Positions 8,927 through 19,600 of a DNA stretch of 64,000 nucleotides are shown piece after piece. Within the stretch, counting starts at the first letter, position 1. Every line of letters starts with the position of its first letter. The stretch is from Pseudomonas sp. B21-056. Its GTDB lineage: Bacteria > Pseudomonadota > Gammaproteobacteria > Pseudomonadales > Pseudomonadaceae. A program made the translations under genes and the position numbers. Location of the stretch: the NCBI RefSeq assembly GCF_026016325.1, contig NZ_CP087203.1, forward strand, positions 1,550,001 to 1,614,000, read 5' to 3'. Below the pieces are notes generated by a model, which saw only the letters and a program-made list of their open reading frames with translations, searched no databases and was not told where the DNA came from.

Positions 8927-9685
8927 ATGCGTTTTGCCGTTCTCGGCAGCGGTAGCCAGGGGAACGGCACGCTGGTAGCCAGTGCCGGTACGTACGTGCT
9001 GGTCGATTGTGGTTTCTCCCTGCGGGAAACCGAGAAGCGCCTGCTGCGCCTGGGTGTGCATCCGGCGCAACTGAGCGCGATACTCGTGACCCATGAACAT
9101 GCCGACCATGTGCATGGCGTGGGTCTGCTTTCTCGGCGCTACAATCTGCCGGTGTACCTGAGCCGTGGAACCTTAGGCGGCCTGCGCAAGCCCATTGAGC
9201 CGGCGGGTTTCGTCGCCGGTGGCGAGCAACTGCGCATCGGTTGTCTGGATATCAACGTGGTCAGTGTGGCGCATGACGCCCGTGAGCCGACGCAGTATGT
9301 ATTCAGCGACGGCGAGCGGCGTTTCGGCTTGTTGACCGACCTGGGATCGTATTGCGACAGGGTCATGGACAGCTATCGGGATCTCGATGCCTTGATGATC
9401 GAGTCCAACCACTGCCGCGATATGCTGGCACGCGGGTACTACCCGTACTTCCTCAAGCAGCGGGTCGGCGGGGAACACGGACATTTGAACAACCACCAGG
9501 CGGCGTACCTGGTGGCCGAGTTGGGCTGGCAAGGCCTGCAACACCTGGTCCTGGCCCATCTGAGCAGCAAGAACAACCTGCCGCAGCTGGCCCGGCAATG
9601 TTTTGTCGACACCCTCGGGTGCGACCCGGACTGGCTGCAACTGGCCGATCAAGATTCAGGGCTCGACTGGCGACATATCGCCTAG
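8927..9685 (+). CDS. MBL-fold metallohydrolase (YycJ/WalJ-like)
   Basis: A 252-residue metallo-beta-lactamase-fold hydrolase. Metal motif THEHADH is at about 46-52, with further ligands in ESNHCRD and GGEHGHLNN. It resembles the YycJ group, for which nuclease activity has been proposed. Substrate is unknown in Pseudomonas. It starts 4 bp after bamC and precedes purC, so it is translationally coupled within the dapA-bamC-purC cluster. Confidence 0.9.
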   Translation: MRFAVLGSGSQGNGTLVASAGTYVLVDCGFSLRETEKRLLRLGVHPAQLSAILVTHEHADHVHGVGLLSRRYNLPVYLSRGTLGGLRKPIEPAGFVAGGEQLRIGCLDINVVSVAHDAREPTQYVFSDGERRFGLLTDLGSYCDRVMDSYRDLDALMIESNHCRDMLARGYYPYFLKQRVGGEHGHLNNHQAAYLVAELGWQGLQHLVLAHLSSKNNLPQLARQCFVDTLGCDPDWLQLADQDSGLDWRHIA

Positions 9686-9713
9686 CCCATCTACTTAGCA
9701 AGCGGAGCCCATC

Positions 9714-10427
9714 ATGGAAAAACGTGAAGAACTCTACCGCGGCAAAGCCAAGTCGGTTTACAAGACCGACGACGCTGACCGCTTGGTCCTGCTGTTTCGC
9801 AACGACACCTCGGCGTTCGACGGCAAGCGCATCGAACAGCTCGACCGCAAGGGCATGGTGAACAACAAGTTCAACGCCTTCATCATGCAGAAGCTCGAAG
9901 CCGCCGGCGTGCCGACCCAGTTCGACAAGTTGCTGGGCGACAACGAATGCCTGGTCAAGAAACTGGACATGATCCCGGTCGAGTGCGTCGTGCGTAACTA
10001 CGCCGCCGGCAGCCTGGTCAAGCGCCTGGGTGTGGAAGAGGGCATGAAGCTCAATCCCTACACCTTCGAACTATTCCTGAAGGACGACGCCAAGGGCGAC
10101 CCGTTCATCAACGAATCCCACGTCGTGGCCTTCGGTTGGGGCACTGCCGAGCAACTGGTTCGCATGAAAGAGTTGTCCCTCAAGGTCAACGACGTGCTGA
10201 GCAAACTGTTCGACGACGCCGGCCTGCTGCTGGTGGACTTCAAGCTCGAATTCGGCGTATTCAGCGACGGTTCCATCGTCCTGGGTGACGAATTCAGCCC
10301 GGACGGCTGCCGCCTCTGGGACAAGGCCACCAAGAAGAAAATGGACAAAGACCGCTTCCGCCAGGGCCTCGGTGACGTCATCGAAGCCTACGAAGAAGTC
10401 GCCCAGCGTCTGGGCGTGCCGCTGTAA
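9714..10427 (+). CDS. purC: Phosphoribosylaminoimidazole-succinocarboxamide synthase
   Basis: PurC joins CAIR and aspartate with ATP to form SAICAR in purine synthesis. The 237-residue product has the usual bacterial length and motifs: [13 protein letters not shown] at the N-terminus, [15 protein letters not shown] and [13 protein letters not shown]. The ATG at 9714 has GGAG seven bases upstream. It is the last gene of the dapA-bamC-MBL-purC run. Confidence 0.97.
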
Positions 10428-10471
10428 TCGACGCAAGCATCTGATAGCACGGAAAAAAATTCGCTCGGGGG

Positions 10472-10500
10472 TTCGCTTCCGACGAATGTGCTGGTATGAT
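10472..10500 (+). promoter_or_regulatory. Sigma-70-type promoter of tRNA-Ser
   Basis: TTCGCT (10472-10477) and TATGAT (10495-10500) are separated by 17 bases and sit 11 bases before the tRNA. The -35 is a weak match, the -10 a strong one. Confidence 0.6.
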
Positions 10501-10510
10501 GCGCGCCACT

Positions 10511-10600
10511 GGAGAGATGCCGGAGTGGCCGAACGGGACGGATTCGAAATCCGTTGTACTGGCGACAGTACCTAGGGTTCAAATCCCTATCTCTCCGCCA
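10511..10600 (+). tRNA. tRNA-Ser (anticodon CGA)
   Basis: A 90-base class II tRNA. The acceptor arm GGAGAGA pairs with TCTCTCC, the anticodon loop TTCGAAA gives CGA (reads UCG), there is a long variable arm, the T loop is GGTTCAAATCC, and the 3' CCA is encoded. Accessory genes begin shortly downstream, but I found no second copy of the tRNA 3' end that would mark an integrated island. Confidence 0.97.
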
Positions 10601-10615
10601 TTATTGAATACGACT

Positions 10616-10652
10616 AAGCCCCTGAAATGGTTGAACATTTCAGGGGCTTTTT
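10616..10652 (+). terminator. Rho-independent terminator of tRNA-Ser
   Basis: A 14-bp perfect stem, AAGCCCCTGAAATG paired with CATTTCAGGGGCTT, with a 6-base loop and a T-run. Confidence 0.95.
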
Positions 10653-10708
10653 CGTTTCTGACGTTTGATTTTCAGGCGGTGATTTCGCTACAACGCCACG
10701 ACTCGGGA

Positions 10709-11062
10709 CTAGCGCGGATCGACGCTATCCAACGCCCGATTCGCCAACAACTCGCTCAGCTCAATCACCTGCTGAATTCCCAGCGCCACATGCCGGCGTG
10801 ACCCTTCAAGGTCGAATGCCAGGTCGTTGATCATGGCGTTGGCTGAGGCCAGGCTTTCGCTGAGGTTGGCAAGCAGGCTTTCGGTGTCGATGCCATCGAC
10901 GACGGTGAAGAGCTGACCTGGTGCGGGATCGCTTTTGGTATCTGCATCTTTGCGTTTCAAATAGAAATCCAGCGCCCGGTCGGTGGCTTCCTGGACTTTT
11001 TTCGGATCGAGGCGGGTGGCGGTTGGGTCCGTTTCCGGGGGATTGGGTGTGGCCTTGAACAT
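10709..11062 (-). CDS. Pseudomonas DUF6124/DUF3077-like protein
   Basis: A 117-residue soluble protein of unknown function. The core TVVDGIDTESLLANLSES and LEGSRRHVALGIQQ matches a family that I recall as common and often multicopy in Pseudomonas, usually called DUF6124 (earlier DUF3077). It has no signal peptide, a charged linker at 35-48 and helical C-terminal half. CAGGAG lies seven bases before the ATG. A 195-bp leader encoding a tiny peptide lies immediately upstream, and a near-identical leader precedes the gene at 14437-14877, which suggests shared control. Confidence 0.75.
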   Translation of the reverse strand: MFKATPNPPETDPTATRLDPKKVQEATDRALDFYLKRKDADTKSDPAPGQLFTVVDGIDTESLLANLSESLASANAMINDLAFDLEGSRRHVALGIQQVIELSELLANRALDSVDPR

Positions 11063-11103
11063 GGTGAATCTCCTGAACCTGATTGAGCCACCATGACTTG
11101 TCG

Positions 11104-11253
11104 CTAAGCAAGTAAGGGTGGCGGCTGCACGCAGGTTAGCGAACCGGGGGTACAGGAGCCCGGCAGATCCGAAGATCTCCCGCGCACAGCCACCATTACA
11201 ACCATTGCAGACATAAATACCTGCAACGAGATCAGGAGTGCTGATGCGTCCAT
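11104..11253 (-). CDS. Tiny hydrophobic peptide, copy A (49 residues)
   Basis: A short reading frame beginning MDASALLISLQVFMSAMVV and continuing to VRGR, then 24 unrelated residues before a TAG 41 bp from the next gene. The first 26 residues match copy B at 14983-15069 except for one Met/Ile change, while four of the five base differences in that stretch are silent. That pattern argues for selection on the peptide. It has one predicted transmembrane helix. AAGGG lies too close to the ATG for an ordinary ribosome site, and a 6-bp hairpin sits just upstream. Function unknown; it could be a leader peptide or a type I toxin-like peptide. Confidence 0.5.
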   Translation of the reverse strand: MDASALLISLQVFMSAMVVMVAVRGRSSDLPGSCTPGSLTCVQPPPLLA

Positions 11254-11370
11254 ACCCTTCGGGTCGCTAAACCCGATCACTGATGATCAGTGACGGGAAC
11301 CAAGCTACCGGTGCGGGCCAAGGCACACAAGCGGGCGGATTCTGGCTTAGTTGTAGGCAAAGGCGCAAGG
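11176..11370 (-). repeat. 195-bp duplicated leader element, copy A
   Basis: This stretch aligns without gaps to 14992-15186 (offset 3816), with about 18 differences by eye, near 90% identity. Both copies end about 115 bp upstream of a minus-strand gene start. Read on the minus strand it holds a perfect palindrome around TCACTGAT-C-ATCAGTGA, then the hairpin TCGGGT-TTAGCG-ACCCGA (11259-11276), then the tiny peptide gene. The copies are direct repeats flanking the DUF4132 unit. Confidence 0.85.
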
Positions 11371-11477
11371 TGACGTAGCCTCGCTCCATGGGCCAGGTGT
11401 TTCTGCGTATGTTTGGTTACGGCCTCACGTCAAGCAGGACAATTCGCCTGAAAACACGATTGGCCAACAGCCCAACA

Positions 11478-14408
11478 TCAACTCCCCCGCTCTATCTGCT
11501 CCAATATCTGACTGTCGGTGATATTCATGTCGTCCAGCAGCAGAAACATCTTGCTCAGTACTTCGGCCATTTTCCGGTCGGTGTCGGCGAACGGCAGGTA
11601 GAACTCGGGGGAGCTGCCGCCAACAGGCACGATGCACAGGTAGTTGCCGGGTTCGATATGGATGGCTGCGCTGCCCAGATGAATGCGGTAGTTCGCACGC
11701 TGGCCGGTAATGTGCAGGAAATGTCCCTCACATTTGACGTTTTGCAGTCCCAACCCTTCAACCAGTTCGCCGACCAGTTCGGCGCGTCGCTGCAGGGTTT
11801 CGTGACTGGTGCTGTAGCCGTCCGCGGCGTGGGCCACGGAGACCAGCAGGTCGGCATCACGCATGACTTCTGAAAACAGCAGTGGCGGTACCTGTTCAAG
11901 CGACAGGGCTTTCTGGTCGCGGTGGAACGCTATCGTGTCAAAGGTGAAGTGTTCGGTTTCTGACAGGTAATGGCCGGTCTCCAGAAAGTTGAACGTGGCG
12001 TGAATGCCGTGCTCCTTGCTCTCGTAATAGATGTCTTCGACGCTTGAGGTCGACCAGTTGCGGACCTGCAGCAACCGGGCGGCTACTTTGCCTTTGAGGC
12101 GGTGGCCGGCAAATCGATTGGACCACAAGCGCGTCTCTCGCTCGGCAGGTGTCAGCAGGTACAGCTCGCGAAAGGCCTGTTTGAACGGCTGCACGCGACG
12201 ATGGCTGACGACTTCTTTCTGCCAGGCCGACAGTTGTCCTGCCGTGAACAGATGATAAGGGTGAGCAATGCGCAGGTTCTGTTCAATGGCGTGTTGGCGG
12301 CCTTCAAGGTCGGTCACCGTCAGCGTTGTGCTGTCGAGCCAACCCAGCGCCGCGTCATCGGCCTGCACGATCAGTTGTTCCAGCAGCAGGCGAACCGCGG
12401 GCATGTTCAACAGGGTTTTCAGGACATCCAGGACCAGGGTTTCGCCGCTGCTCATCATCGTTTCCAGGGTGCGGCAGAAGCGTGCGATCTGCTCCTGGAG
12501 TTGGATCTGCTGGGCTTTGAGGGCGACGAAGTCTGCGCTTTTGCGAATCGCCGGCGGTGCGGTCTTGAGTGTCTTTTCGGCTTTGCAGACGCGCAAGGTG
12601 GGCGACAAGCCGTCGATCACCAGCGTGACGTCATAGCCGTCGATGGAGGCGGCCATTAGGGTGGATTCGGCGATCTCCGACTCCATGGCCCATTCCAGGC
12701 GAATCGCTGAGGGATAACCGGCAACACGCGCCAGGTTTTCCAGCCCCGCCTGAATCGCTGCGTGGGAGTTGGCCTGCCGTTGAGCGCCGTACTTGCGCAC
12801 CTCCTTGTGCAGTTTCTTCAGCGTCAGATAGCGCTGGCGTACGTCGTCCGGATGTGTGACGGGGAATACCCCATAGATGCGCATCGCCGACTGTGCGTGG
12901 CGGGTCAGCTTCTTTTCCAGTGCAGGTCTATCGATGCCCTGATAGGCATCGAGCAGCACGCGCGTTTCAGGAAATGCCCAGTGCGAAGGGGCGAGTGCGG
13001 CGAGATATTCGCGCAAGTGCTGTGGGTCGGCCTCGGACAACGCTTTGTCCAGCAGGTAGCGGTCCACCACACCTACGGTTTCATCCAATGAATTGGGCAG
13101 GTCGCGGGCCCAGCCGGACTGAGGTGCGAGGGCGATGTTCAGGTATTCACGCTGGAAGGCTTGCAGATCATGCCAGCCGAGCGCATCGAGTATCACTCGG
13201 CTGGCTTGCCCGGCGTAGGGCAGGGCGGTCAGCAGGGTATTTCTGGAAAAACCGGTCAGCGACGCGAGCAGCTCTGCCGATTGGTCCTTGGGTAATTCCT
13301 GGAGTAAGAGGAAACGTTCGAGCACCGCGGCCGTATCGCCGAAGCTGTCATGAAAGGTGTCGGGGGTCATGCCCAGCCGTTCAATGACCGCCAGGGCCTG
13401 CAGCATCCAGCGGGTCTGATAGACCTCTACCGAACGGAAGGTGTCAGCCAGTTTTCCGGCGTTATCGGGTAATCCGGCCAGGGCGTCCTCGACATAACGA
13501 ACGGTGAAGTTCGCCAGTTCAGGTGGCACGTCGGTCGGTTCTTCAATCAGGGGATCTTCGCTCTGAGGTTGCTCTGCCTCGAATCCTTCATCGTCAGGGG
13601 CTTCATCATCCGGTTCGTCTTCGTCGAGCGCTTCATCGGCGTACCGATCCAGCTCCAAGTCATCGCTCGCGAGCCCGGCGTCGTCTGTATAGAACATCAT
13701 GGCGCGCCCCCAGGTGTTGGCCGCCCGGACGAAGCGAGGGTAATCGAGCCGACCAGCTTCCATCAGGGCCAAAGCAATGCGCTCGATGTCCTTGTACACG
13801 TAGGTGTACGCGTCAGCGATTTTCCGTTGTTCTTCATCAGGCGAGGAGGAGGGTTGCACACGGTTCCAGCTGCCGTCCAGCAACCATTCGGCGAACGTTT
13901 GCCAGGCCGGGGTGGGCGGATAGTTGCTCAGGCGGTTGATGCAGGCCGGTACATCGGGGAAGGCCCAGGCATGTTCCGGGCGTCTGCGGTAATAGGCAGG
14001 ATCGTCGTCCTCAGTGGGCAGTGGATAGTCGCTGTCCTCGAACGCAAATTGCAGCATGTGCTGCAGTCGTACACAGATCTGCTCCAGTGCGTAGGCATCG
14101 GGGTGAGCCGTGATCCACGCATCGCAGAGGCGATATTGCAGGCCATAGCGCTGCTGGTCGCGGCGATCCTCCAGGTCTTCCCAGACGGTCGGGAACACAA
14201 AGCCGTCAGCCAATGCCCGGGTGCCGTCCTGTGGATCCTGCCTGACCCAGTCATCGGCAATGCGCAGGAAGTCGAAGTCATCCCAGAAATTGAGCTCGAA
14301 TAGCTCATCGCGGCTGAATTCGGGATAGGTATCCAGCGCTCTGTCACAGAAGGCTCTCAGTGCAGCGAGGCGTGTGGCTTGGTCGGGCAGGGGACGGCGT
14401 GATTGCAT
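11478..14408 (-). CDS. Large DUF4132-domain protein
   Basis: A 976-residue protein of unknown biochemical function. The C-terminal part (about 700-976), with QAFRELYLLTPAERETRLW, NRFAGHRLKGKVAARLL, SEVMRDADLLVSVAHAADG and the final GNYLCIVP block, matches the DUF4132 type seen with WGR/MolR-like proteins. Residues about 255-305 are a very acidic, low-complexity linker. No signal peptide or membrane segment is seen. The ATG at 14408 has GGAA seven bases upstream; an in-frame TTG at 14447 would overlap the upstream gene but lacks a ribosome site. It follows the Gly-Gly protein by 28 bp, so both form one operon. Confidence 0.75.
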   Translation of the reverse strand: MQSRRPLPDQATRLAALRAFCDRALDTYPEFSRDELFELNFWDDFDFLRIADDWVRQDPQDGTRALADGFVFPTVWEDLEDRRDQQRYGLQYRLCDAWITAHPDAYALEQICVRLQHMLQFAFEDSDYPLPTEDDDPAYYRRRPEHAWAFPDVPACINRLSNYPPTPAWQTFAEWLLDGSWNRVQPSSSPDEEQRKIADAYTYVYKDIERIALALMEAGRLDYPRFVRAANTWGRAMMFYTDDAGLASDDLELDRYADEALDEDEPDDEAPDDEGFEAEQPQSEDPLIEEPTDVPPELANFTVRYVEDALAGLPDNAGKLADTFRSVEVYQTRWMLQALAVIERLGMTPDTFHDSFGDTAAVLERFLLLQELPKDQSAELLASLTGFSRNTLLTALPYAGQASRVILDALGWHDLQAFQREYLNIALAPQSGWARDLPNSLDETVGVVDRYLLDKALSEADPQHLREYLAALAPSHWAFPETRVLLDAYQGIDRPALEKKLTRHAQSAMRIYGVFPVTHPDDVRQRYLTLKKLHKEVRKYGAQRQANSHAAIQAGLENLARVAGYPSAIRLEWAMESEIAESTLMAASIDGYDVTLVIDGLSPTLRVCKAEKTLKTAPPAIRKSADFVALKAQQIQLQEQIARFCRTLETMMSSGETLVLDVLKTLLNMPAVRLLLEQLIVQADDAALGWLDSTTLTVTDLEGRQHAIEQNLRIAHPYHLFTAGQLSAWQKEVVSHRRVQPFKQAFRELYLLTPAERETRLWSNRFAGHRLKGKVAARLLQVRNWSTSSVEDIYYESKEHGIHATFNFLETGHYLSETEHFTFDTIAFHRDQKALSLEQVPPLLFSEVMRDADLLVSVAHAADGYSTSHETLQRRAELVGELVEGLGLQNVKCEGHFLHITGQRANYRIHLGSAAIHIEPGNYLCIVPVGGSSPEFYLPFADTDRKMAEVLSKMFLLLDDMNITDSQILEQIERGS

Positions 14409-14436
14409 GAGGGTTTCCGAAGAAATGAACGACGGG

Positions 14437-14877
14437 TCAGCCGCCAATCAGCGGCATCAGACGGATAAACGCAAGCGTGGAAGGGGGGCTTAAATCGATG
14501 GGGTCATTCAGGCTTTGCAGCATGACGCCATTGTGCAGAACGCGGAAGGCGCGGTTTTCAAAGCCCTTCAAGGCTTGCTCGATCTCGACGTCGACATCCA
14601 GTCTGGGAGATTCGCTGGCTTGCGGCATCACGATTGCACCTTCACTGGCTTGCCGGCGGATGTCCCGCTCGCTCAGGTACTGGCGATCAAGCACCTCGCG
14701 CATGGATGCCTGTTCCAGCCAGTGCTGGACCGACAGCGCGGCGATCTGTTCGGCAACGGTGAGGCGAATGAGCTCGGCGACCGTCAGGGTCGACGAGGTC
14801 GGTGTCAGGGTGACGGGGGGAAGCAATGGCTCCTGGCGTGCGCCTTTCAGGCAATAGCTATGAACCACCAACTCCAT
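14437..14877 (-). CDS. Small protein with ubiquitin-like Gly-Gly C-terminus
   Basis: A 146-residue protein that I do not recognise. An N-terminal segment LTVAELIRLTVAEQIAAL is helical; a charged middle follows. The last 35 residues (FRVLHNGVMLQSLNDPIDL, then STLAFIRLMPLIGG) look like alternating strands ending in Gly-Gly directly before the TGA. This recalls the C-terminus of MoaD/ThiS and other beta-grasp proteins (..PPVAGG). The ribosome site AAGGAG is seven bases before the ATG. It is the first gene of the DUF4132 operon. No E1-, E2- or JAB-like gene is adjacent, so activation of the tail is speculation. Confidence 0.6.
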   Translation of the reverse strand: MELVVHSYCLKGARQEPLLPPVTLTPTSSTLTVAELIRLTVAEQIAALSVQHWLEQASMREVLDRQYLSERDIRRQASEGAIVMPQASESPRLDVDVEIEQALKGFENRAFRVLHNGVMLQSLNDPIDLSPPSTLAFIRLMPLIGG

Positions 14878-14982
14878 AACGTACTCCTTGCAAGCCAGGC
14901 CAGTCGGGCGGAAGGCAGCTTAGCAAGCTTGCGGTCAGTGTGCCTGATGCGCGTTACGGTTTTGCCAAACCGTACGCATCGT

Positions 14983-15069
14983 TCAGAAGGTTCTCCCGCG
15001 CACAGCCACCATTACGACCATCGCAGAGATGAATACCTGCAACGAGATCAGGAGTGCTGATGCATCCAT
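14983..15069 (-). CDS. Tiny hydrophobic peptide, copy B (28 residues)
   Basis: Starts MDASALLISLQVFISAMVV and ends VRGRTF before a TGA 105 bp upstream of the Gly-Gly protein gene. It is the clean version of copy A, with a single hydrophobic helix followed by a basic tail, the layout of many type I toxin peptides. The AAGGG seen before copy A is CGAATGGT here, so translation would be weak or regulated by the hairpin at 15075-15092. Confidence 0.5.
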   Translation of the reverse strand: MDASALLISLQVFISAMVVMVAVRGRTF

Positions 15070-15186
15070 ACCATTCGGGTCGCTAAACCCGATCACTGAT
15101 GAGCATTGATGGGAACCAAGCTACCGTTACGGACCAAGGCACACAAGCTGGCGGATTCTGGATTAGTTGCAGGCAAAGAAGCAAAG
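14992..15186 (-). repeat. 195-bp duplicated leader element, copy B
   Basis: Direct-repeat partner of 11176-11370. The hairpin TCGGGT/ACCCGA is fully kept (15075-15092), while the neighbouring palindrome is degraded. The conserved block covers the tiny peptide gene and about 115 bp upstream of it, as expected for a promoter plus 5' leader. Confidence 0.85.
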
Positions 15187-15234
15187 CGATCAACAGGTTG
15201 TTCTCCGGCTGATATGCGTTTGCGACCAAAGATG

Positions 15235-16530
15235 TTACGGTTGTGAGTAAATGTTAGCTTGAGATGATTTCATGACATTCAGGACATCCATTTTGTTGGC
15301 GTAGAATGTATCGATCTCCCACTGTGCCAAACGACCAGATTCTTGGTATTCAAAGAAGCGCCGTTCAAATCGTTGTGCATCTAGTTCTTTTCCAAGGCCA
15401 AACAAAATTTGTGCCATAGACGCCAGTACCCACTTCTGATCAGATCGCTCTGTAAAGTTGGGCGATAGGATAATATCGTTTAAGATGGACTCAAGCTCTT
15501 CTCGTGTCTTGCGAGCGCTTACCCGATAGTAGCTCTGTTCGATCGGATCTGTTTCCAGCTCAGATCGATAGTTTAGGCAGATGGCTTGGTTTTCACCTGT
15601 ATAGTAATCGCGGCGAATGTCGAATCCGCGCCCATAATATTTGATGGAAAGCTCCAGCTCTGCGGGATCTTTGGTGATTTTCCAGAGGCGCTTGTGAATG
15701 GCTCCTGCTATTCCCAATGTTTCGGGATCGTTGGATGAGTCCGGAGAGAGTTCGTTGATGATTTTTAGTGCATTGACCAGCGATGCGATCTGTGAGGGAG
15801 CTTGACTCTTGTATGTGGAAAGAGCCAGTCGTTGAGTTATGTAGGGGTCGCCAGGTTTTATTTGTGAAGCGGCAAAAAAATTTGCGACGGCCGTATCAAA
15901 CTGATCACTACGTAAAGCCTCTTCGGCACACTCGAAGATATTAGAGAAATGCTCTTCGCTATCTTCACTTTGCTGTATGAGCGCTTCGATTTGCTCTTCC
16001 GACATTTGAGGTTGGATCAAGCGAGGGATGAACGTGTATACCGGGCTATCAGGTCGTGAGTGGGTAAGCACTTCACCAATCAAATTAGTCAGATCCAGGA
16101 TGGCGCGTCGAGCCTCGCTGGCACCAATATCTTCACCCAAATGATCATAAGAAAATGTATTGGTGTGGTTTAAGTCGAAATGTAGTTTGCCTTTGCTCTC
16201 TTTCATAATAATTGTAGAGAACGGCTTGAGTGCATGTCGCACACCCAGTTCATACAGTGCATTTGGATTGCCGGTTGAGATGTCGGCAATGACAAGATCA
16301 GCCCGCAGAAGCATTTCATACATTGGCAAGTCAATGTGTCCCGAATGCATGACCTCGTCAGCCCGGATACACCGTAAACCTGCGGAAATGACTGCAGGCT
16401 TGATGATTTCTCTATAGGTTGCATTCAGATCAAGGGTGCGTCCTGTTTCATAGTCAGTTTTTTTGCCAAACCCCATTACTACAAAACAGAGTTTGGCATC
16501 GGCCGGATACATTACATCGCCGTGACTCAT
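15235..16530 (-). CDS. Deoxyribosyltransferase-like (DRHyd) plus TRAFs-binding/TPR protein
   Basis: A 431-residue soluble protein. Residues about 12-135 form a nucleoside 2-deoxyribosyltransferase-like domain: CFVVMGFG, ADEVMHSGHIDLPMYEMLL, ADLVIADIST (Asp83) and GNPNALYELGVRH (Glu94), with the residues used for glycosidic-bond hydrolysis in that fold. Residues about 180-410 are helical and match the TRAFs-binding (DUF4071) type region also present at the N-terminus of animal ASK-type MAP3 kinases. It lies 37 bp after the TIR gene on the same strand, and both are AT-richer than their neighbours. By family logic it could be the effector that responds to the TIR product. No direct evidence of that exists here. 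Confidence 0.75.
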   Translation of the reverse strand: MSHGDVMYPADAKLCFVVMGFGKKTDYETGRTLDLNATYREIIKPAVISAGLRCIRADEVMHSGHIDLPMYEMLLRADLVIADISTGNPNALYELGVRHALKPFSTIIMKESKGKLHFDLNHTNTFSYDHLGEDIGASEARRAILDLTNLIGEVLTHSRPDSPVYTFIPRLIQPQMSEEQIEALIQQSEDSEEHFSNIFECAEEALRSDQFDTAVANFFAASQIKPGDPYITQRLALSTYKSQAPSQIASLVNALKIINELSPDSSNDPETLGIAGAIHKRLWKITKDPAELELSIKYYGRGFDIRRDYYTGENQAICLNYRSELETDPIEQSYYRVSARKTREELESILNDIILSPNFTERSDQKWVLASMAQILFGLGKELDAQRFERRFFEYQESGRLAQWEIDTFYANKMDVLNVMKSSQANIYSQP

Positions 16531-16567
16531 GAAGAGGTACCTTCTCAGTTGGCTATGATCGTTCTAT

Positions 16568-16981
16568 TTAGAGCGCGTATTTTCGAATGGCGGTTACGAT
16601 GCTATCAGTGTTCCAACGCACCATTTCTTTGGCAGCGGTCTGCACAATCAAAGGGGTACGCTGCTGTCCCCACGGAACGACGCCAATAATGGGCTTTTGA
16701 TACTTTGCGGCAATGGCAATCTCTGCGCTAATCCAGTCGCTGTGAGCGGCATGCATGCCAGCTAGGATTAGAACAACATTCGTGATACGAATTTGCTCAT
16801 CCAAGGCAGCAGTCAGTTTTGCGGTGGTAATTGGTGAGGGTATCGGATCGGTACGGGGTACGGAGGAGTTGCGGAACAAAAAATTGGGAGTTGCCGCTAA
16901 CATTTTTGTTAAACGTTCATATTCATCGTGGTAGTCCCAAGCATGGGAAATAAAGCCGACATAGGTTTTCAGCGCGGGCAT
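16568..16981 (-). CDS. ThsB-like TIR-domain protein
   Basis: A 137-residue single-domain protein. The order YVGFISHAWDYHDEYERL, then ITNVVLILAGMHAAHSDWIS with a conserved Glu87 (SDWISAEIAIA), then KPIIGVVPWG fits the TIR-like fold of Thoeris ThsB (DUF1863/MTH538 group), where that Glu processes NAD+ into a signalling nucleotide on phage infection. An upstream in-frame ATG at 17029 exists, but GGAG six bases before the ATG at 16981 fixes the start. It is the first gene of a two-gene operon with the DRHyd/TRAFs-binding protein. Neither Thoeris ThsA form (SIR2-SLOG or Macro) is present nearby. Confidence 0.75.
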   Translation of the reverse strand: MPALKTYVGFISHAWDYHDEYERLTKMLAATPNFLFRNSSVPRTDPIPSPITTAKLTAALDEQIRITNVVLILAGMHAAHSDWISAEIAIAAKYQKPIIGVVPWGQQRTPLIVQTAAKEMVRWNTDSIVTAIRKYAL

Positions 16982-17192
16982 GTGCTCTCCGGCGACGCTT
17001 GTGATTGAGTACGGATGAGAATGTAGCACAGTGCCACTGCTGTGCGAAGGTTTGGATCCAATAAATTTCGTATGAAATCAGGCCCTCCTGAGCGCGAAGG
17101 TATCCGAGAGTTGGGATGGCTAACCACCATAAATCTATTGCTTGGCGACGCTCAGTTTGCGTTTCAAGTGCATGCTAGCCCGGCAATGTAGG

Positions 17193-17210
17193 TGTCACTC
17201 CTTTGTGACA
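17193..17210. promoter_or_regulatory. Inverted repeat upstream of the chemoreceptor
   Basis: A perfect repeat, TGTCAC-TCCTTT-GTGACA, lies in the gap between the TIR operon and the chemoreceptor, about 75 bp before the latter's ATG. It could be an operator; the binding protein is unknown. Confidence 0.4.
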
Positions 17211-17225
17211 ATTAGACTAATGGTC

Positions 17226-17252
17226 TATAGCTCAAGGCATACCTGCCGATAG
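17226..17252 (+). promoter_or_regulatory. Sigma-28 (FliA)-like promoter
   Basis: TATA, 15 bases, then GCCGATAG. The FliA consensus is TAAA-N15-GCCGATAA, so 10 of 12 positions match at the right spacing. It lies 32 bp before the chemoreceptor ATG, where such genes are usually flagellar-regulon members. Confidence 0.65.
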
Positions 17253-17284
17253 GTACATCAAACCCCGTAAAAGGAGTAGTTCCC

Positions 17285-18919
17285 ATGCTGCGGTTCTTTG
17301 CCGACCTGGGCTTTCGCTGGAAAATCACCCTGCCAATCGCTTTCCTGGCGTTGCTGTTGGTGTTGATGGGCTGGTCGGGTGTGCGTGGAATCGATCAGGT
17401 GACTGACTCCAGTACGGAGCTGACCAAGCGCTATCTGCCGGCCATCAGTTTGCTGCTCAATGCCGACCGCGATCTCTACCAGGCGTTCGTGGCCGAGCGC
17501 AGCCTGCTGGTCGGTAATGCGGGCGATCATGTGCAGGCGTTGCGCACCAGTCACGCCGAGAATCTGAAGCAAGCCTATGATCGCGTGCACAAGTACGCGG
17601 CCATGCAGCCGGGGACCGAGGCGCTGGCGTTGGTCAAACAGTTCGATGACAGTTTTGCCCAGTGGGCGCAGCTTTCGCGGCAAGTGGTCGAGCAGGCCAC
17701 GACCAATCCGCAGGCGGCCAGTGCCCTGAGCTTCGGCGACGGCGAAAAGCGGTTCGACACCATGCGCGATGCCATCGACAAGCTGGGTGAGCTGGAAGAC
17801 CAGGCGTCGCTTCGCGAGGGGCAGGCGGCGATCGACCATGGCGAAGCTGTCGGACGGCAACAGGGCGGTATTCTGTTGATCGGTCTGCTCGGCTGCGCTC
17901 TGGTTGTTTTTGCCTTGCCGCTGGTGGTGCTGCATCCGATGCGTCGATTGCTCCACCGCGTCGAGCAGATTGCCGAGGGCGGCGGTGATTTGAAGGGCCG
18001 CCTCGAGGTGCGTTCGGCTGATGAGCTGGGGCAGCTTGGCAGTGCTTTCAACCGTTTCCTCGACAAACTCCAGCCGCTGATTGCCGAGGTGGGCCGGGTG
18101 ACCGGGGAGGTCGATGCCGCGGCCCGCACCATGGCCAGTATGGCTGCGACCAATGATCAACTGATCAGCAGCGAACATGCGGCGCTGGATCAGGTCAGTA
18201 CCGCCGCCACCCAGATGAGCGCGGCCGTGCATGAGGTGGCGCACAGTGCCGTGAATGCCTCCGACGCCGCCAAACAAGCCAGCAGCCAGTCCCGTGACGG
18301 CGCCGAAGTGGTCAGCAGCACCATCGACTCGATCCGCCAACTGGCCCAGGAAGTGGAAAGCGCCTCGGGTACCATCGGAGCGTTGGCCCAGGAAACCTCC
18401 AGCATCGGTGCCGTGCTCGAGGTGATTCGAGGCATCGCCGAGCAGACCAACCTGCTGGCGCTGAACGCCGCCATCGAGGCCGCGCGGGCCGGCGAACAGG
18501 GTCGCGGGTTTGCCGTGGTGGCCGACGAAGTCAGGGCCCTGGCGGCACGTACCCAGGACTCGACCAAGGACATCCAGGTGCGCATCGAACGGCTGCAGAG
18601 CGGGGTGGCAAAGGCGGTGCAGGCCATGCAGGTCGGCAGCGACAAGGCCCGCGACAGCGTCGAGCGCGCCGCGGGCGTCGATCAGGTCCTCAGCGGCACC
18701 AGTGGCTCGATACAGCGGATCAACGACATGGCCGCGCAGATCGCCAACGCTTGTGAAGAGCAGAGCAGCGTCACCGAGGAGATTGCCCGCAACATCTCCG
18801 ACATCCGCGACCTGTCCAACGAAGCGGCAGAGAATTCCGCCCAGAGCATGCAGGCCAGCCGGCAGTTGTCCAATCTGTCGAAGAGCCTGGCGGAACTCAC
18901 CGGCCGCTTCCGCACCTGA
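17285..18919 (+). CDS. Methyl-accepting chemotaxis protein
   Basis: A 544-residue inner-membrane receptor that signals to CheA/CheW. Transmembrane helices lie at about 13-33 and 195-220, enclosing a periplasmic helical-bundle sensor (about 34-195). A HAMP domain (about 215-270) and a cytoplasmic hairpin with the conserved tip [20 protein letters not shown] follow. Ligand is not predictable. AAGGAG precedes the ATG, and a sigma-28-like promoter is upstream. Confidence 0.95.
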
Positions 18920-18985
18920 GTCGGGCACGGCCGTGTCCCGCAAGTCCCAGGCGGCGCTCACCCGCGACCGCCTGCGGGCCTTGCA

Positions 18986-19600
18986 TCAGGAAGCCGGGTT
19001 CGACTGACTGCCCGGCGCCTCAACCCCCAGGCGTTTTCCAACCATCTGCAACAGGTGTTCCGCCACATTGCTCACCCCCTTGTTCTGGGCGACAACCTGG
19101 GCACCTTCGAGCAGGAACGTCAGCTCGCGGGCGACGTTCTGGGCATCGGGCAGCTTCGCCTCCTGGCACAGGCTGACCAGTCGCTGGAACTGACGTTGCT
19201 TATGCGCCTCGATCAGCTGCCGCGCCGGATGTTGCGGGTCGGCCAGTTCGGCCAGGCAATTGGTGAAGGAGCAGCCGCGATAGCCCGCCCGAGCCAGGTC
19301 TTGCGCAATGAACCGGGTAAACCCCAGTAACTGTTGAATTGGCTGGCCTGGCCATTGCGCCGCGAGGTCGTCGAGCACCCTGCTGTACTGGGCGGTGAGC
19401 AAGCGCAGCCATTGCAGCACCAGCACATCCTTGGTTTCGAAATGCCGATACAAGGTCATCTTGGTCGAGCCGGCGAGGGCGGCGATGGCATCCACGGTCA
19501 CCCGGGTAATGCCCTGTTCAACGAACAGGGCATGGGCAGCATCAATGATGCGTTCACACGGTGGTAACTGCGCGATGCGTTCAGGGTGAATGAGCTTCAA
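18986..19600 (-). CDS. TetR-family transcriptional regulator
   Basis: A 204-residue repressor with an N-terminal HTH (RVTVDAIAALAGSTKMTLYRHF, about residues 30-52, with the TetR hallmark TLYRHF) and a helical ligand domain. A TTG start at 19600 is preferred because GGAG lies six bases before it; the in-frame ATG at 19636 has no ribosome site and abuts the operator cluster. It is divergent from the amidase gene, and three operator-like repeats lie between them, so it very likely represses itself and the amidase. Confidence 0.88.
   Translation of the reverse strand: MKLIHPERIAQLPPCERIIDAAHALFVEQGITRVTVDAIAALAGSTKMTLYRHFETKDVLVLQWLRLLTAQYSRVLDDLAAQWPGQPIQQLLGFTRFIAQDLARAGYRGCSFTNCLAELADPQHPARQLIEAHKQRQFQRLVSLCQEAKLPDAQNVARELTFLLEGAQVVAQNKGVSNVAEHLLQMVGKRLGVEAPGSQSNPAS

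Follow-up and report, generated by a model that had tools for sequence, protein, structure and literature searches.

A ThsB-type TIR gene paired with a DRHyd-TPR-S gene in Pseudomonas: a widespread, mobile pair with a probable anti-phage role

A gene for a TIR protein of the ThsB type and a neighbouring gene for a protein that joins a DRHyd-like domain to a TPR-S region (Tetratricopeptide Repeats-Sensor) lie together in the 64,000-nucleotide stretch of Pseudomonas sp. B21-056 DNA analysed here (the window), and comparison with relatives indicates that the pair is widespread and mobile, with a probable anti-phage role. It is read here, with a probability only slightly above one half (about 0.52), as a mobile two-gene conflict system in which the TIR protein would supply a signal, the TPR-S region would be the sensor and the DRHyd domain the effector, an arrangement that would be Thoeris-like with a different responder.

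The two genes

The first-pass annotation, made from the sequence alone, had described a TIR protein of 137 residues with Glu87 and, 37 bp downstream on the same strand, a 431-residue partner carrying Asp83 and Glu94; both reading frames, the gap between them (16531-16567) and all three residues were recovered as described (Table 1). The ORF list also offers a GTG start at 17029, which would lengthen the TIR protein to 153 residues; the ATG at 16981 was adopted because a methionine is aligned at this position in 21 of 22 TIR homologues, the exception (P0209) being a longer protein. The annotation's remark that the operon is AT-richer than its flanks is likewise upheld, with a GC content of 0.468-0.480 across the pair (three 1-kb intervals, 15000 to 16999) versus 0.571-0.607 on one side (1-kb intervals with starts from 11000 to 14000) and 0.580-0.666 on the other (starts from 17000 to 18500). 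A promoter scan gave one site (shuffle mean 3.1) and a terminator scan two (1.9 in shuffles). Each family, TIR and DRHyd-TPR-S, has a single match in the whole 6.45-Mb genome at E<=0.001.

Table 1. Positions of the pair and of accompanying features in the window
Feature	Position	Strand	Description
Accessory insert	11195..17203	.	~6 kb; TIR / DRHyd-TPR-S pair, DUF4132 gene and small ORF; absent from relative G010
TIR protein, ThsB type	16571..16981	(-)	137 aa; ATG at 16981; stop codon 16568-16570; Glu87
DRHyd-TPR-S protein	15235..16530	(-)	431 aa; residues ~13-135 DRHyd-like domain (Asp83, Glu94), 211-319 TPR-S, more helices to ~427
DUF4132 protein	11478-14447	(-)	989 aa; DUF5724 end, DUF4132, DUF7737
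Small ORF	14437-14877	(-)	146 aa; ends -LIGG
Direct repeat, copy 1	11176-11373		198 bp
Direct repeat, copy 2	14992-15189		198 bp
C4 antisense RNA	11114-11200	(-)	RF01695
DUF6124 gene	10709-11062	(-)

The TIR protein

Assignment of the TIR protein to the ThsB type follows from the Pfam family ThsB_TIR (PF08937; E 9.6e-18, 64.9 bits against a cut-off of 21.2) and from the PADLOC ThsB models (best E 1.4e-14). Structure prediction, which the first-pass annotation had named as a check, gave the expected fold: the AlphaFold2 model has a pLDDT of 84, residues 81-90 around the putative catalytic glutamate average 88, and its fold matches include MTH538 (E 1.4e-5), MilB, SARM1 (E 9.8e-4) and ThsB chains (E 4.5e-3 to 2.5e-2). 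Glu87 is invariant in all 68 TIR proteins found paired with DRHyd-TPR-S; in a separate alignment of 22 TIR homologues it is replaced by Asp in one, P0218. We propose that the protein acts as infection sensor and as maker of an NAD-derived signal.

The DRHyd-like domain

The label of deoxyribosyltransferase-like domain, given by the first-pass annotation, survives in its residues and is weak by sequence. In 81 of 81 DRHyd-TPR-S sequences Asp83 and Glu94 are unchanged, as are Asn88, Asn90, Tyr93, and His99. Searched by itself, the domain of the window protein finds nothing in Pfam at E<=10, and PF05014 is hit by 2 of 30 family members (best E 0.026). All 11 matches at E<=10 in a PDB profile search are Rcl/DNPH1 nucleotide N-glycosidases, none of them significant (best E 0.26), and there the Glu94 segment is aligned with the YELG segment of Rcl; these matches are consistent with an N-glycosidase identity of the DRHyd domain and fall short of proof. 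We take the glutamate equivalent to Glu94 to be catalytic in the DRHyd / nucleoside deoxyribosyltransferase-like family. The model of DRHyd-TPR-S is poor in this region, with an average pLDDT of 54 for residues 81-90 and 41 for residues 91-100.

A protein search with the domain alone returned 1430 proteins; the 120 matches listed are 140-266 residues long, and since all but one of these 120 lack a Pfam label, the domain is not tied by them to a named enzyme family. The C-terminal part of the PADLOC model PDLC00733 (named Effector, TIR), which is presumably a CBASS model, is matched by 30 of 30 family members.

The TPR-S region and its enzyme heads

The second half of the partner is identified more firmly, by PF20308 (TPR-S; E 8.8e-20, 71.6 bits, cut-off 27.6). 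In the neighbourhoods of DRHyd-TPR-S genes, other kinds of protein also score above the cut-off of this family: one with an alpha/beta-hydrolase head (L011, E 2.3e-14) and two with a patatin head (L050, E 2.5e-16; L076, E 2.2e-16). Some loci hold two TPR-S proteins. When a profile was built from the DRHyd-linked TPR-S regions, the patatin-linked copies scored 79 and 57 bits and the hydrolase-linked copies scored weakly (L003, 15 bits; L011, 11 bits), that of L009 not being recognised by this profile. Because TPR-S also occurs on alpha/beta-hydrolase and patatin proteins, it is most likely the sensor, with DRHyd as one of several effector heads. The earlier suggestion that the DRHyd protein takes the role of effector or second enzyme in a Thoeris-like system is in this way partly supported, and refined to a TPR-S sensor with a DRHyd effector head.

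Conservation within the partner is concentrated in the sensor region: among 81 sequences, 23 positions conserved at >=95% fall in TPR-S versus 2 in the C-terminal TPR part. The polar ones in TPR-S (Gln233, Lys241, Glu270, Lys280, Tyr299, Tyr309, Tyr310 and Asn314) are a candidate ligand site.

Burroughs and Aravind (2020) reportedly described TPR-S beside TIR and fused to a domain of nucleotide-processing type, and are said to have presented a TPR scaffold that is predicted to sense NAD-derived signals and was taken into the animal ASK signalosome. The kinship with the ASK signalling core that the first-pass annotation had suggested stands as far as the fold is concerned: the model of DRHyd-TPR-S matches the central regulatory TPR region of ASK1 (MAP3K5), and this match lies above the rest; in Foldseek alone ASK1 ranked ninth (E 4.4e-3), the full model there returning TPR and other helical proteins, none at E<=0.001, a result uninformative on the DRHyd half. 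Identity with the ASK1 region is 10%, and the window protein has no kinase domain. PF13281 (MAP3K_TRAF_bd) stays below its cut-off on the window protein (21.2 versus 24.1 bits) and is passed by another TPR-S protein (L076, 475 aa, 119.5 bits). Nor is the idea new, since a 2021 paper, in a passage citing the 2020 work, derives components of the ASK signalosome from conflict systems of bacteria (PMC8195603). A bolder extension, which we hold tentatively and think rather unlikely, is that TPR-S would be a dedicated receptor for TIR-made ADP-ribose messengers that plugs into killing enzymes unrelated to one another (DRHyd, lipase-like hydrolase, patatin), and that the ASK1 central regulatory region would descend from TPR-S and maybe still bind an NAD-derived ligand.

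Linkage of the two genes is strong and one-directional

The DRHyd-TPR-S alignment was scanned against genome contigs, and the best 80 of at least 522 confirmed relatives were used. In 67 of these 80 loci a TIR-family gene is immediately adjacent (same strand in 63 of 80), and in 72 of 80 it lies within two genes; in 5 of 80 there is none within five genes. TIR-family genes make up 83 of the 152 immediate neighbours of the 80 loci versus 8 of 443 genes that lie beyond the sixth position, a count made with a broad TIR profile that was built from the neighbours themselves and may include TIR-like proteins other than ThsB. The 67 paired TIR genes lie upstream in 22 cases, downstream in 41 and on the opposite strand in 4. 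One further Pseudomonas locus (L120), additional to the 80, also has a TIR-family gene next door, and the Pseudomonas stretches L113-L119, which by length are contigs already among the 80, were counted once. Protein searches, from which the best 120 of 4788 relatives (DRHyd-TPR-S) and the best 120 of 467 (TIR) were taken, point the same way: for 15 of the 38 best DRHyd-TPR-S relatives (P0001-P0038, >=63% identity; counted by eye) the longest contig equals in size that of a listed TIR relative.

Seen from the TIR protein the result is different. A DRHyd-TPR-S gene was found beside none of the seven TIR matches, other than the window's own, from 369 sampled genomes of the class (stretch fetched), and beside none of eight TIR genes on viral contigs (stretch examined; 42-55% identity to the window TIR). 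A SLATT-profile gene lies close to 7 of the 8 viral-contig TIR genes (SLATT_1 of Pfam being passed by 6 of 6 checked) and near 2 of the 7 class-genome ones, so that 9 of the 15 TIR relatives overall have a two-TM SLATT neighbour. Linkage of homologues, which the first-pass annotation had named as a check on the operon, accordingly holds for DRHyd-TPR-S and is not reciprocal, at 0 of 15 TIR genes. Four of the seven class-sample matches (L139-L142) look like a different, housekeeping, non-defence group of TIR-like genes; in these genomes, all of the same class, the TIR-like gene adjoins a fatty-acid-oxidation-like gene in four of four and an endonuclease/phosphatase-like gene in three.

Other families recur around DRHyd-TPR-S. 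By profile, the best 80 loci contain SLATT in 32, Ogg-HhH in 18, QueC in 11, PfkB in 11, alpha/beta-hydrolase-TPR-S in 6, CAP12-type TIR in 5 and TIR-TGT in 33, the last count including other TIR proteins as well; the families other than TIR were named by Pfam from one representative each. Of these recurrent neighbours, SLATT, Ogg-HhH, QueC and CAP12-type TIR are of defence type. A PfkB kinase, TIR-TGT, Ogg-HhH and QueC lie near TIR and DRHyd-TPR-S in L025, L027 (about 5.7-11.3 kb), L028, L031 and the plasmid locus L124, except that QueC was not met by profile in L031; the set recalls what we take to be type IV CBASS accessory genes. SLATT, where present, could serve as effector in place of DRHyd.

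These neighbourhoods bear on a reading in which the roles are reversed or shared: DRHyd would be another signalling enzyme, similar to a cyclase or N-glycosidase, and would make or remodel the messenger, and TIR (or SLATT, where present) would be the executioner. The frequency of SLATT and the presence of two TPR-S proteins in some loci speak for it, as does the inclusion of ADP-ribosyl cyclases in the DRHyd superfamily, which is mentioned in the available part of PMC9503650. However, TIR is the only recognised partner in 31 of the best 80 loci, a figure that is an upper bound on minimal pairs because some of these contigs are short and genes were called simply by choosing ORFs that do not overlap, those truncated at contig ends included; moreover, patatin and hydrolase heads, to which TPR-S is also fused, are unlikely signal makers, and the DRHyd region resembles a PADLOC model named Effector. 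We consider the reversed arrangement unlikely.

Divergences of TIR and DRHyd-TPR-S correlate across 68 pairs (r 0.476, reached by 0 of 2000 permutations, with shared species history kept in the test). The correlation also speaks for a reading with no small messenger, in which DRHyd-TPR-S, in complex with the TIR protein, would sense a phage protein directly and release or multimerise TIR, which would then deplete NAD+. TPR scaffolds commonly bind proteins, and recognition of phage capsid or portal proteins by TIR systems is documented (PMC12847820, PMC12578639). Yet the presence of TPR-S on different enzyme heads fits a common ligand, and invariant catalytic positions in DRHyd would be needless in a pure scaffold; a mechanism of this kind appears quite unlikely.

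An accessory insert and the mobility of the pair

The pair is carried on an insert that interrupts sequence shared with a close relative, G010: in its stretch (L107, blastn) the blocks that end at 11194 and start at 17204 of the window are only 216 bp apart. The drop in GC content over the pair also points to an insert. Alignment with G010 gives 95.1% identity over 9001-10666, 92.3% over 17204-18991 and 79.7% in a short block at 11080-11194, and G010 carries about 1.1 kb of different sequence in place of 10667-11079. Of 298 genomes sampled from the genus, 9 have a DRHyd-TPR-S relative, the window's own included. Because of this rarity, and because the other eight are at 50-54% identity versus 79-82% for relatives that, among the matches listed, include Pectobacterium and Ralstonia proteins, the pair is counted as accessory, with a probable source outside the genus.

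Plasmids are one vehicle. DRHyd-TPR-S relatives were found at E<=1e-40 on 41 of 72,556 plasmid records (19 conjugative, 8 mobilizable, 14 non-mobilizable); a TIR gene adjoins in four of the four plasmids opened, two of which also carry a DUF4231 (SLATT-type) gene. On a Pseudomonas plasmid of 9.8 kb the pair is present and the annotation, like the other plasmid gene tables incomplete, lists no DUF4231 gene. In E. coli a partial DNA match was found in 25 of 5426 genomes (covering 21% of the query in the ten matches listed), and in the one genome opened the TIR gene lies 1 bp downstream, with genes for a relaxase and a restriction-modification methylase nearby. Phage records gave 6 matches in 50,697, restricted to the N-terminal domain (27% of the query).

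A stress-response or maintenance pair of toxin-antitoxin kind, not aimed at phage, would suit the plasmid location, the adjoining relaxase gene and the toxin-antitoxin genes found near the pair on two of the four plasmids opened. The recurrent neighbours are nevertheless families tied to defence, and neither protein resembles a small antitoxin, making this the least probable of the readings considered.

The remainder of the insert holds a DUF4132 module. Its 989-residue protein had no counterpart in 28 other sampled genomes at E<=1e-50. The 146-residue ORF overlaps the downstream DUF5724/DUF4132/DUF7737 ORF by 11 bp; its C-terminus is like a ubiquitin-type tail, and it is a possible ubiquitin-like partner of the DUF4132 protein. 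It passed no Pfam cut-off and had no match in PADLOC, NCBIfam, PHROGs or, at E<=10, the PDB. The module is flanked by a direct repeat, about 90% identical between its two copies and with 17 further matches in the genome that are weaker and mostly partial; the repeats may have been used for recombination. A C4 antisense RNA (78.8 bits, gathering threshold 45) lies upstream of the DUF6124 gene, and sub-threshold C4 target-like matches (11256-11308 and 15072-15124) fall inside the repeats.

Comparison with known systems

In Thoeris types I, II and IV, as presented in the accessible part of PMC12847820, a signal produced by the TIR protein is answered by a partner, and effectors already differ among types. 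The window pair resembles Thoeris in having a ThsB-type TIR gene and a second gene in one unit; unlike the SIR2-SLOG, TM-Macro or caspase-like effectors of Thoeris, the responder here would be DRHyd-TPR-S. No effector of these three kinds was found among the window neighbour proteins scanned, which agrees with the first-pass annotation's statement that a SIR2-SLOG or Macro ThsA is missing from the locus; a genome-wide search for STALD gave 0 matches, but its control was likewise without a match. The TIR protein belongs to the ThsB family. Thoeris proper was rejected because neither the partner nor the scanned neighbours include a ThsA-type gene. As the effector is of another kind, the pair is called Thoeris-like and not Thoeris. 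CBASS was also rejected, no CD-NTase being present among seven window proteins by Pfam.

The TPR-S conflict systems (PF20308) are close in layout, with TPR-S beside TIR and fused to a DRHyd-like domain, the latter weakly identified here; their two features, TPR-S above cut-off and a TIR-family neighbour (in the best 80 loci, as above), are both found. Phage-borne TIR-SLATT pairs are described in the available text of PMC9503650, and in that of PMC9122126 a system of TIR and a transmembrane protein in the P2-like phage AC1 protects E. coli C. Their layout is related, SLATT being also a frequent neighbour of DRHyd-TPR-S; they differ in that the window partner is DRHyd-TPR-S and the window unit has no SLATT gene. 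A search for a SLATT partner elsewhere in the window genome gave one distant sub-threshold match (20 versus 26.3 bits), which was not accepted.

Proposed mechanism

We know of no phage phenotype or enzyme activity for a TIR / DRHyd-TPR-S pair. In the reading favoured here, phage infection would lead the ThsB-type TIR protein to convert NAD+, via Glu87, to an ADP-ribose-type signal, which the TPR-S region of the partner would recognise; signal binding would switch on the N-terminal DRHyd domain, and this domain, through Glu94 and Asp83, would cleave an N-glycosidic linkage of NAD+ or of a (deoxy)nucleotide, by which the infected cell would be stopped. This scheme is favoured because of the recurrent pairing, the correlated divergences, the invariant catalytic positions, the occurrence of TPR-S on several heads, the defence-type neighbours, the PDLC00733 matches, the plasmid and accessory context and the related layout of AC1. 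Counted against it are the non-reciprocal linkage, the few TIR-less loci among the best 80, the non-significant DRHyd matches, the poor model at Glu94, the weak recognition of hydrolase-linked TPR-S and the Asp of P0218.

Among the literature matches listed (titles and abstract openings), no experimental study of TIR with DRHyd-TPR-S was found; the 12 TIR systems of E. coli studied by Wang (2024) may include a relative that was tested. As a prediction, the core of the idea has at least in part been published before, given the 2020 prediction described above and the 2021 paper, which already places the origin of parts of the ASK signalosome in bacteria. The present analysis adds a measurement of the one-way linkage, the exchange of partner with SLATT, the occurrence of TPR-S on different heads within shared neighbourhoods, the association with Ogg, TIR-TGT and QueC, an ASK1 fold score for the window protein and the insertion site. 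If the favoured reading is true, TIR signalling would extend to a class of responder beyond SIR2, Macro and caspase-like effectors, and the pair would offer a compact two-gene bacterial system for testing where the ASK1 TPR scaffold comes from and which ligand it may bind.
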